DNA from: Levilactobacillus acidifarinae DSM 19394 = JCM 15949
Lineage (GTDB): Bacteria > Bacillota > Bacilli > Lactobacillales > Lactobacillaceae
Direction: 5' to 3'
DNA length: 64,000 nucleotides
Assembly: GCF_001434835.1 (NCBI RefSeq)
Contig: NZ_AZDV01000003.1
Span: forward strand, 62,001 to 126,000
Program-made: the position numbers and the translations under genes
In this document: piece after piece, positions 27,696-49,723 of the stretch
Position numbering within the stretch: position 1 is the stretch's first letter
Layout of the letters: each line of letters starts with the position of its first letter
The notes under the pieces: model-generated
What the model was told of the DNA's origin: nothing
The model's input: the letters and a program-made list of their open reading frames with translations, nothing else
Database searches by the model: none

Positions 27696-28265
27696 ATGCG
27701 TCAACTGTATCTCAACCAAGCCGCCCTATCGGCCCGTGCGACCACGGTCATTCGCGATGCTGATAATCAATCACGCTACCTCCTGGTCGGTAAATGGGGG
27801 CTGCGGGCCGACGTTCTAACCGTCTACTTAATCGACGGGTCACTCGAAGCCGAAGTTAAACAAGAATCGTTGGGGCTGTTGCCCCGCTTTCGGTTGCTGT
27901 ACCACCGCCAACCCGTAGGTCACGTTAGTAAAACCTTCGGCGTGATCCGAGAAGTGCTCTTCGTTCGCGGTCTCAACTGGGTCATCATGGGCAACCTGAA
28001 CAGTGGGCGGTTCCGCATCTTTCACGGTCGGGAACTGATTGCCAACATCGCTCCGGTATCAGCGGACGGTCAAACCATCGCATTAGAGGTCGATCAACCC
28101 GATCACGAGGCCCTGGTGGTCTGTTTAGCCGCTATCTTGGACCGTTGGGCCAAGCACCAACAACGGGGCTTAAATCCCTTGAAAAATCGCGGGTGGGCCC
28201 CCGGCTTATCGTCGGAAGTCACGCCCTTCATCACGCAAGAAAAAAACCTCGATCGTCGTTACTGA
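27696..28265 (+). CDS. LURP-one-related / YxjI family protein
   Basis: Protein of 189 residues resembling the LURP-one beta-barrel family (YxjI in Bacillus), with RYLLVGKWGLRADVLTVYLIDG and repeated beta-strand segments. Function unknown; the fold resembles the phospholipid scramblase/tubby barrel, which hints at membrane or lipid binding. RBS GGAGG before the ATG. Its last codons form part of a terminator shared with the convergent smpB. Confidence 0.7.
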   Translation: MRQLYLNQAALSARATTVIRDADNQSRYLLVGKWGLRADVLTVYLIDGSLEAEVKQESLGLLPRFRLLYHRQPVGHVSKTFGVIREVLFVRGLNWVIMGNLNSGRFRIFHGRELIANIAPVSADGQTIALEVDQPDHEALVVCLAAILDRWAKHQQRGLNPLKNRGWAPGLSSEVTPFITQEKNLDRRY

Positions 28266-28280
28266 CGGTCGGGGCTTTTT
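28241..28280. terminator. Bidirectional terminator between the YxjI-like gene and smpB
   Basis: AAAAAACCTCGATCGTC / GACGGTCGGGGCTTTTT with one or two mismatches, overlapping the end of the upstream frame. Confidence 0.75.
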
Positions 28281-41897: not shown

Positions 41898-41969
41898 TGC
41901 GCCCGGAGGGAATCGAACCCCCATTTCAAGAACCGGAATCTTACGTGCGATCCATTACACTACGGGCGC
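41898..41969 (-). tRNA. tRNA-Arg(CCG), copy 1
   Basis: 72-nt cloverleaf on the minus strand: acceptor GCGCCCG/CGGGCGC, anticodon stem TAAGA/TCTTG with loop TTCCGGT (anticodon CCG, reading CGG), T-loop TTCGATT, discriminator A; CCA is not encoded. Promoter TTGTAT-17-TATAGT (42027-41999) precedes it. Confidence 0.93.
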
Positions 41970-43397: not shown

Positions 43398-43469
43398 TGC
43401 GCCCGGAGGGAATCGAACCCCCATTTCAAGAACCGGAATCTTACGTGCGATCCATTACACTACGGGCGC
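43398..43469 (-). tRNA. tRNA-Arg(CCG), copy 2
   Basis: Identical to copy 1 over the 72-nt tRNA and over 86 bases including flanks; own promoter TTGAAT-17-TATAGT (43531-43503) and own, unrelated terminator. Confidence 0.93.
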
Positions 43470-47400: not shown

Positions 47401-47445
47401 AAAAAGCCCGTTTCTCGTGGCGTCGCTGCCAGAGAAACGGACTTT
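47401..47445 (-). terminator. Terminator ending the whiA 3' untranslated region
   Basis: Fourteen-base stem AAAGTCCGTTTCTC / GAGAAACGGGCTTT (one G-U), further inner TGGC/GCCA pairs, then TTTTT on the minus strand. Confidence 0.8.
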
Positions 47446-47534: not shown

Positions 47535-47655
47535 GAAACATGCTTACCAGGGGCAACGGGTTCCGCTTAACCCCATTTCAGCAATTAGCCAAAACCGGCT
47601 AATCACCGAAATGACGTTAATGCTCGCCCGCTGACCGCCCCTGGACGCACTCTTA
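47535..47655 (-). repeat. Tandem structured unit A downstream of whiA
   Basis: First of two roughly 122-bp tandem units. Minus-strand hairpin 47632-47555: outer stem AGCGGG/CCCGTT, loop bases GAGCATTAACGTC on the left and GGGGTTAAGCGGA on the right, inner stem ATTTC/GAAAT then ATTAGCC/GGCTAAT. Loop sequences identical to unit B, stems different. Confidence 0.75.
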
Positions 47656-47657
47656 TT

Positions 47658-47780
47658 GAAACGTGCTCCTGACGGGCAGCCGGTTCCGCTTAACCCCGAT
47701 TGGCCAATTATCCAAACCCAGGATAATCGGCCAATCGACGTTAATGCTCACCAGCTAAACGCCCTTCGTCGCACTCTATG
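47658..47780 (-). repeat. Tandem structured unit B overlapping the whiA stop
   Basis: Second unit; hairpin 47756-47678: outer stem AGCTGGT/ACCGGCT, same internal-loop sequences as unit A, inner stem GATTGGCC/GGCCAATC then ATTATCC/GGATAAT. The unit's end (GCACTCTATG on plus) coincides with the whiA stop codon, so both units are probably transcribed as the operon's 3' UTR. Confidence 0.75.
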
Positions 47781-48705
47781 CCTCTCGCAACTGCTTGGCG
47801 TAGTCGTTGATCTTCCGTAGCCGGTGATTGATCCCCGACTTCGAGATTGGACCGCCCGGGACCAGGTCGCCCAGTTCCTTTAAACTGACTTCTCTGTGCG
47901 CCAGCCGCGTTTCCGCCACCTCGCGTAACTTCGTCGGTAGTTGGCCTAACCCCACCGTTGCTTCAATATATTGGATGTTATCGATTTGGCGCGTCGACGC
48001 GTTGGCCACCTTGTCCAGGTTGGCGTTTTCGCAATTGACCAACCGGTTGACTGAGTTACGCATGTCGCGCATGATCCGAACGTCCTCAAACTTCAACATC
48101 GCCGTGGTTGCCCCAATCAACGACAAGAAGTCGGCAATCTTTTCCGCCCCCTTGAGGTAGGTAATGTAGCCACTTCGCCGTTCAATCGAGCGTGCGTTGA
48201 GGTTATACTGATTCATCATCTTCGCAATCATCTGGTTATGTTCCTCATACAAAGAATAAATCTCCAAATGATAACGACTAGTTTCTGGATTATTGACCGA
48301 TCCACCGGCCAAAAAAGCCCCCCGGAGGTACGACCGCATTTGCAGGTCGGACTTCAGGATGCTTTCCGGGACGGATTCGGAGAGTTGGACGCCGTCGAAG
48401 ATGCCCAAATCGGACAAGACTTCGGTGACCCCCGTCTTGACCCGCACAATGTACAGGTTATTTTTCTTGAGCTTCATCTTCCGCCGCACCAGTAACTCGC
48501 TTTCCAGATCGTAGAACTGCTTGAGCAGTTGGTACATCCGGCGCGCAATGGCGGGATTTTCCGTTTGGACGTTCAGGACAAAATGGTGATTGGCCAAACC
48601 CAGGGCCCCGTTCATCCGAATCAGGGCCACCAGTTCGGCCTTGGCATTGTCCCGGTGAACCTCCAACGTGGTCAGCTCTTTTTTGACTTCGCTGGCATAA
48701 GACAT
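47776..48705 (-). CDS. whiA: DNA-binding protein WhiA
   Basis: Protein of 309 residues (start [12 protein letters not shown] at 48705, GGGGG upstream; 14 extra in-frame codons upstream overlap yvcK and are not used). An N-terminal degenerate LAGLIDADG-like domain is followed by a C-terminal HTH (about 220-300; [25 protein letters not shown]). WhiA affects cell division and chromosome segregation in Firmicutes. Third gene of the conserved rapZ-yvcK-whiA unit, 4 bp after yvcK. Confidence 0.95.
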
Positions 48706-48709
48706 GTGG

Positions 48710-49723
48710 TTAAGACCCCCGATCGATACGGTAACGGGGTTGCCCAATCAGGTTCAGCAGTTCGGTAACTACCTCTTGACCGTTATGGAACGCCCCGTTA
48801 TCGCGCAGTTGTAAGAAGTCCGTCGAAATCACACGACAGCCTTGGTCGCGAAGACCTTGGAAATCGTGACGGACCGGTTGGGACATTTCGTCCCAGCGTT
48901 GATAGTCGATGTACTGGTCGGGTACCTTCCGGGTGTTGACCAATACCGTATCAATAAAGTTAGCGTTTAAATGTTGATTCAAGACGCGCACGTGATCGGC
49001 GTCGGTAAAGTTTTCGGTTTCACCCTTTTGCGTCATGATGTTGCAGATGTAGACCACTTCGGCTGGGCTTTCCCGGACCGCCTGACCGACACTTTCAATC
49101 ATCAGGTTGGGCAGGATGCTGGTAAACAGACTTCCCGGTCCCAGGACGATTTGATCGGCGTTCATAATGGCATCAATGACGGGTTGAACCGCCTGCGGTT
49201 GCTGGTGGTGGTCACTGGTTTCGACCCACACCCGTTTGATCAACTTATGGGCGGCCGTAATTTCCGATTCACCCTTTAGGGTACTGCCATCGGCAAACTG
49301 GGCGTGCAACTCCAGTGGTTCGTTGGCCGCCGGATAGATGTGCCCGTTGACCCGCATCAGTTGCGATAACTCCTGCACCGCGTCGAAAATACCACCCTTC
49401 ATCTCGGACAGCGCCGCGATGATCAGGTTTCCAATTGCGTGACCGGCAAAGAAGTCGTCGGTCGTTTCAAACCGGTACTGGAATAAGTCTTTATAAATGT
49501 TGGGCACTTCGGCCAAGGCGACCATCACGTTACGAATATCACCAGGTGGCACCACGTTGACGTAGTGGCGAATGATGCCGGAGGACCCGCCGTCATCGGC
49601 CACGGTCACGACCGCGGTGATGTCGACGTTTTGGTCCCGCAGGTTCCGCAAAATGACGGGTAACCCGGTTCCCCCACCGATCACGACAATCTTCGGTCGG
49701 TGCGTATGCATAGGATCTCTCAT
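48710..49723 (-). CDS. yvcK: Gluconeogenesis factor YvcK/GlmR
   Basis: Protein of 337 residues of the CofD-like/YvcK family ([48 protein letters not shown]). In Bacillus this UDP-GlcNAc-binding protein (GlmR) stimulates GlmS and supports wall synthesis on gluconeogenic carbon, a functional link with the glmS and glmM genes elsewhere in this window. Its ATG overlaps the rapZ stop codon in ATGA. Confidence 0.94.

Follow-up and report, generated by a model that had tools for sequence, protein, structure and literature searches.

The two tandem repeats downstream of whiA in Levilactobacillus acidifarinae are copies of a dispersed element found at gene ends. Each copy is a covarying hairpin, mostly on the sense strand of the upstream gene, and the sites that carry the element turn over between related species. 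We moderately favor the interpretation that it is a tolerated mobile cassette, in which the hairpin serves both the 3' end of the host message and the element's own spread.

Structure of the tandem pair behind whiA

The window, the whole stretch of 64,000 nt that was analysed, holds the pair on the minus strand (47535-47777) as two tandem copies of about 119 nt, each forming one imperfect hairpin. Copy 1, the first full unit after whiA (47658..47777, minus strand), and copy 2, the full unit in tandem with it (47535..47653, minus strand), are direct repeats that are 75-77% identical without gaps. The sequence-only reading had placed tandem 122-bp units at this position; the units are there, spaced 123-124 nt from start to start. 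In the L. acidifarinae genome, model R1 scored copy 1 (G000:C25:109658-109777) at 132.8 bits (E 9.9e-34) and copy 2 (G000:C25:109535-109653) at 108.9 bits (E 6.4e-27), both being among the 28 copies from which the model was built. With short flanks, the minus-strand units fold at -65.8 kcal/mol (copy 2, z -7.5) and -69.7 kcal/mol (copy 1, z -8.9), and none of 200 dinucleotide shuffles was as good. The plus-strand folds were weaker but still good (-46.1 and -49.9 kcal/mol; z -5.2 and -6.5).

The gene whose 3' UTR holds the pair is whiA (47776..48747, minus strand), an open reading frame (ORF) of 323 amino acids that is 92-99% identical in relatives (first 24 loci). Copy 1 overlaps its stop codon by 2 nt (TAG AGTG). 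Both units have the orientation of whiA and precede an inverted repeat with a short T-run behind it (47403..47445, minus strand; repeat scan and by eye) that is probably an intrinsic terminator, which agrees with the placement first proposed for them. In copy 1, the conserved 5' box GAGCATTAACGTC (47737..47749, minus strand), in which GAGCAT is invariant across 28 aligned copies, pairs with the conserved 3' box GGGGTTAAGCGGA (47685..47697, minus strand) according to sequence, fold and alignment. The same two box sequences recur in copy 2 (47613..47625 and 47562..47574, minus strand, from sequence), and the compensatory stem changes quoted in the sequence-only reading do keep pairing between the units. 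Its invariant internal loops stand as conserved motifs but not as open loops: most of their sequence forms a conserved helix, in which GC and UUAAC/GUUAA pair with each other, along with a bulge and G.A-type mismatches.

The unit begins AGAGTG, ends GCACGTTTC and is a single imperfect hairpin of ~119 nt. Covariation was scored on an alignment of 28 of the 32 full copies of the genome; L018 and L022 (with the same cores as L017 and L021) and L030 and L031 (indels) were left out. A structure of 39 base pairs, drawn from the same 28 copies on which covariation was scored, had 96.9% of its cells paired, compared with 80.9% after shuffling. The covariation score was 0.478 versus 0.169 for shuffled data, and none of 500 shuffles was as high on any of five measures. 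Changes on both sides were present at 24 of the 39 base pairs, and pairing fell to 39-43% when the partner was slid by one column. AGAGTG, CG-N-T-N-AG, GAGCAT, TTAAGCGGA and CACGTTTC were fixed or nearly so in the 28 copies. Many of the fixed motifs are retained in other genera, some boxes with paired replacements, and one subgroup has jointly changed CGTC/GGGG to GGCC/GG[A/T][A/T] or close forms. All of these counts come from related copies and are not independent events. At two loci (L034:2986-3106 and L037:3059-3174), the 3' arm is the complement of the 5' arm (TTAATGCTC...) and the conserved bulges are lost, as if one arm had been copied.

G-U pairs outnumber A-C mismatches in the variable part of the apical stem (columns 47-58 paired with 79-90: 42 G-U, 1 A-C and 9 other mismatches), and from this excess we conclude that selection on structure acts on a single strand, the one in the sense direction of the upstream gene. 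Of the 42 G-U cells, 29 fall in two neighbouring pairs and so do not represent 42 events. Over all pairs of the 28 copies the count was 88 G-U versus 11 A-C, and among 95 copies of three species it was 268 versus 55 (194 versus 54 without one conserved U-G pair). By folding energy, the sense strand was also the better one in 163 of 165 copies under RNA parameters and in 162 of the 165 under DNA parameters. This strand-specific covariation across copies bears out the earlier suggestion of selection on structure: the folded sense strand is what is selected. Since the bias is the same with DNA parameters, folding energy leaves RNA versus single-stranded DNA unsettled, and a single-stranded DNA step may be part of the element's life. 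Such a bias would also suit a purely selfish element, whose structure, folded as RNA or single-stranded DNA, would serve nothing but its mobility and have no effect on host messages. We regard this as a tentative alternative; copies would then lie at gene ends because insertions do little harm there or because an enzyme that targets terminators inserts them there.

Dispersal and position at gene ends

Searching the L. acidifarinae genome gave 40 matches, and a profile applied to the stretches around them and to the window located 43 places, consisting of 32 full and 11 partial copies. R1 gave 67 matches in the whole genome, many of them being the opposite strand of one copy; the 34 above 60 bits were the 32 full copies and two more. 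Tandem arrays of 2-5 units are common. All 35 Levilactobacillus genomes had R1 matches, with a single one each in G003, G007 and G024 (weak in G003 and G024). G024, which is 82% identical to the window at rapZ-yvcK-whiA, is nearly repeat-free; G023, at a similar distance, has 41 R1 matches. In a survey of 301 sampled Lactobacillaceae genomes, for which filters were tighter and no more than 12 candidates per genome were scored, R1 matched 142 genomes in 23 of 40 genera. At E 1e-6, 38 of 295 Lactobacillales genomes had matches, some in four other families, and these were weaker. The model, once built and searched, recovered further copies with covariation in this genome and in relatives, as the structural claim of the sequence-only reading would have it.

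By blastn against plasmid records, we found three Latilactobacillus curvatus matches with one query copy, eight Lactiplantibacillus/Loigolactobacillus matches covering less than half of the query, and one Aerococcus match (19% and 46% covered); a copy from L. acidifarinae and one further copy had no match in these records. Phage records had none with three different copies. Rfam 15 at the gathering score returned only two tRNAs in the whole window and left the element unmatched; these two minus-strand genes (41898-41969 and 43398-43469) have equal scores and lie 1.5 kb apart. No Rfam family was found at 20 loci of relatives, and a permissive threshold on the pair brought up only microRNA models and gut-2, all far below the cut-off. 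We met no recognised description of the element in Lactobacillaceae in the literature searched, which largely leaves out subscription journals, so that its absence from print is unproven.

L. acidifarinae is close to L. zymae (G033), whose WhiA is 99% identical and whose rapZ-yvcK-whiA stretch shares 91% DNA identity. R1 was run on 24 Levilactobacillus whiA loci, two of which carry just the label Lactobacillus sp., and found the element on the whiA strand at three: complete in L. zymae and L. wangkuiensis, and partial in L. lanxiensis, with the hairpin top deleted. L. koreensis and strain HBUAS51381 have it at whiA on the opposite strand, and 19 of the 24 loci had no R1 match. G034 also has an element right at the whiA stop, on the whiA strand. 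Only 2 of 56 whiA loci of other genera had a whiA-strand match within about 70 nt behind the gene, a weak one at 21 nt in Lentilactobacillus parabuchneri and one at ~69 nt in L. diolivorans. Behind L. zymae whiA (L038:3971-4340), one full unit is followed by two partial units in which other sequence stands in place of the 5' arm; repeats of the 3' half are also present in L009, L014, L015, L016, L019, L025, L029, L035 and L036. Because the element is rare at whiA loci, it has no special tie to whiA. A regulatory RNA linked to whiA or to RapZ/YvcK, which the sequence-only reading had connected with wall sensing, is thus most improbable. The pair does sit in the 3' UTR of that operon, but the element is lost at most whiA loci and present behind many unrelated genes (67 upstream ORFs from this genome and relatives fell into 60 blastp groups), which contradicts a specific link.

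Copies instead lie at the ends of many genes. In L. acidifarinae, 27 of 32 have a same-strand gene upstream, and 15 of these start within 19 nt of its stop as set by a simple ORF caller. The set from relatives comprised 66 copies at 65 loci, mostly the best copy per genome, with the first unit of the array taken at four loci and with our own locus L119 and L181 left out. The upstream gene was on the same strand for 58 of the 66 and on the other strand for 8; 51 copies started -14 to +31 nt from a same-strand stop, and 15 were not near one; an even spread over the gaps after stops, estimated from window genes only, would put ~12% that near. Five stretches annotated by others were also inspected (L266-L270, from Latilactobacillus curvatus and one Lactiplantibacillus plantarum plasmid; L269 is without an array), three of them chosen because they hold a match. 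There, the start of 11 of 14 arrays lies -2 to +6 nt from a same-strand stop in the annotation, as it does behind mutS, groL, rpiA and trmB. At the other three, no unannotated ORF longer than 64 aa was found, and the plasmid tables list no pseudogenes. One of these records, CP117684.1 (L269:1-50000), is a 592-kb L. curvatus 'plasmid' that starts with dnaA-dnaN-yaaA-recF-gyrB-gyrA and looks like a chromosome piece. In other Lactobacillales families, a same-strand ORF of at least 200 aa ends within 120 nt of 11 of 20 copies, and within 31 nt of 10; nine lack one.

A common upstream gene was considered and rejected, as the '~498-aa' upstream ORFs proved to be ORFs cut at the flank end and not one protein. 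By eye, the upstream genes of L. acidifarinae have no functional theme or shared pathway. This bears on the idea of a 3' UTR regulatory RNA that benefits the host through a trans-acting factor bound at the conserved boxes. Orientation, stop-codon spacing and upkeep at shared sites are all consistent with such an RNA, as are boxes that are recognisable across many genera. We nevertheless judge it unlikely, since blastp grouping and inspection by eye gave no functional theme upstream, and since many relatives lack the element at the corresponding gene and some species are almost free of it.

Two classes of copies and their turnover

Class A copies (AGAGTGGGACAAAAGGC...), about 13 of the 32 in this genome by eye, have a similar linker and a terminator such as GGGTCTGGGACTTTTGTCCCAGACCC behind the hairpin. 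Across the genus, matches to the whole class A unit are ~175 nt long with the terminator counted (a 119-nt hairpin plus the terminator hairpin). Class B copies, which include the window pair, have no directly following terminator and lie after a stop or just past the T-run of another terminator. Several of them sit after a terminator by eye, where little transcription is expected, and this counts against the interpretation we favor. When terminators were sought by folding, 54 of 143 copies had one behind them, versus 17 of 143 on the opposite strand, so most copies are without one by this detector.

We compared sites with G033 and G034 in those regions of the two genomes that hold a copy. Eighteen L. 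acidifarinae copies in 15 ortholog groups, nearly all class B, had a copy at the same site in one or both. Class A copies were mostly without a partner there and are alike within a genome. At four of five class A sites (L185/L017, L187/window, L021/L246-L247 and L022/L256-L257), the relative has a different terminator-like hairpin by eye; at the fifth (L059/L057), it keeps a similar terminator and the hairpin is missing. The window site (28237-28275), which follows a minus-strand gene, is element-free, and its counterpart in L. zymae (L187) holds a class A unit together with the terminator. Insertion of miniature elements of the MITE type duplicates the target. No target duplication was seen at the compared sites that were printed, none of which was a clean filled/empty pair.

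At shared sites, stems differed as whole alleles, the outer stem being swapped and the apical stem kept in L013/L210 and L015/L212, and the reverse in L019/L211. We interpret these swaps as probable gene conversion among copies. Across 16 ortholog comparisons, several of them within one group, changes on both sides kept pairing in 39 cases and broke it in 4, and changes on one side kept a pair in 29 and broke one in 29. Because single changes often damage pairing and conversion could import paired doubles, the case for site-by-site selection is weakened.

These comparisons also bear on the selfish alternative. Class A copies that resemble each other within a genome and mostly do not occupy shared sites would fit it. 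So would the near absence from G003 and G024 and the lack of a whiA-strand element at 21 of 24 Levilactobacillus whiA loci, which suggest that the element is dispensable. However, class B copies are still well paired at sites shared across species, even if those changes are not all independent, and this is unexpected for dead copies unless conversion renews them. Nor does either enzyme considered as a mobiliser track copy number. Y1 transposase was rejected: PF01797 was found in 23 of 35 genomes, but G001, G008, G020, G026, G029 and G033 gave no match despite 28-90 R1 matches apiece (counting both strands), and G024, with its single weak R1 match, did give one. Reverse transcriptase was rejected likewise, as RVT_1 was found in 10 of 35 genomes and its presence did not vary with copy number. 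Neither family was matched in L. zymae, although its class A copies are many and similar, and reverse transcriptase was also unmatched in the window's genome and in G034; genes may have escaped these searches where assemblies are drafts. Homologous replacement of gene ends is a possible route of spread.

In the mobile cassette that we favor, an element EFAR-like in anatomy would begin at or just after the stop codon of a host gene, mostly in its sense direction, and would be co-transcribed with it. New class A copies appear to replace the gene's native terminator, if the change ran in that direction, and class B copies, like the window pair, keep their sites from species to species and swap stem alleles, by what would be gene conversion. 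The hairpin would leave the message with a sound 3' end, through termination, protection or processing, and the same hairpin would be needed for the element's own spread. A more specific proposal, which we find doubtful, would make it an order-wide, uncatalogued structured RNA of Lactobacillales: a 3'-end cassette that starts from the stop codon, takes the place of native terminators and, via a partner reading the conserved GAGCAUUAACG/GGGGUUAAGCGGA helix, influences either the ribosome as it terminates or the 3' end of the message. If the cassette interpretation is right, many lactic acid bacteria of food and gut would have one and the same folded RNA at the end of tens of messages per cell, and the element would have to be taken into account wherever their 3' UTRs are annotated or the termination and decay of their messages are interpreted. 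It would also be a case for how a repeat reaches stop codons and displaces terminators without a recognised transposase or reverse transcriptase.

Relation to known repeats

EFAR units of enterococci are reportedly ~170 bp long and replace short stem-loop target sequences. That replacement resembles the terminator difference at four of the five class A sites, provided that the change there went from terminator to element. In the cited passages, Efa-1 is an intergenic repeat of 163 nt made of a pair of adjacent stem-loops (PMC2267715), and EFAR is counted among the MITEs of enterococci (PMC3733652). We infer that Efa-1 and EFAR are one repeat, which, like our element, is an intergenic palindromic repeat of Lactobacillales. 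Two adjacent hairpins in ~163-170 nt are also the build of class A (~175 nt); class B lacks a second hairpin directly behind the first. Covariation, strand and stop-codon anchoring, all features of our element, do not figure in those passages on EFAR/Efa-1 (PMC2267715, PMC3733652). A chain of matches leads from R1 to L287 and, by blastn with L287 against plasmid records, to 107 Enterococcus and 3 Lactococcus records; R1 misses three Enterococcus plasmid copies that were tried. On one Enterococcus faecium plasmid (L293:1340-1640), a diverged relative of the element lies just behind the end of a small annotated reading frame and has the same direction. The likeness to EFAR is one of anatomy.

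Palindromes of other kinds share part of this anatomy. ERIC is a long single hairpin, like our element (PMC2267715), with an orientation-dependent effect on message stability (PMC2229807). It differs in belonging to another phylum (enterobacteria), and the passages cited describe neither a terminator class nor a start at the stop codon. REP sequences are given as 20-40 bp long and often associated with IS200/IS605-type transposases (PMC3733652, in the part cited). REP/RAYT systems and REPINs are dispersed palindromes often beside genes, as our copies are, but Y1 transposases fail to track copies of the element. MITEs are described in the same part as having terminal inverted repeats of 15-30 bp (PMC3733652). 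In our element, the whole unit is one imperfect inverted repeat, and its very ends pair over 3 bp only in the drawn structure. Integron attC sites were weighed as a candidate because of their size and position at stop codons, and were tentatively set aside on the basis of their consensus.

BOX of Streptococcus pneumoniae is modular, structured and transcribed, and 36 annotated genes have a stop codon encoded by BOX, according to the passages cited (PMC3049150). BOX is like our element in being a structured repeat that reaches stop codons. Compared by description, it is unlike it in its three-module A-B-C build and in a strand distribution reported there to mirror coding bias (PMC3049150). Order-wide covariation with stop-codon anchoring was not met in the literature searched, and we place the element among the dispersed, transcribed palindromic repeats. 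Judged by anatomy, its nearest kinds are EFAR/Efa-1 of enterococci and BOX of the pneumococcus.
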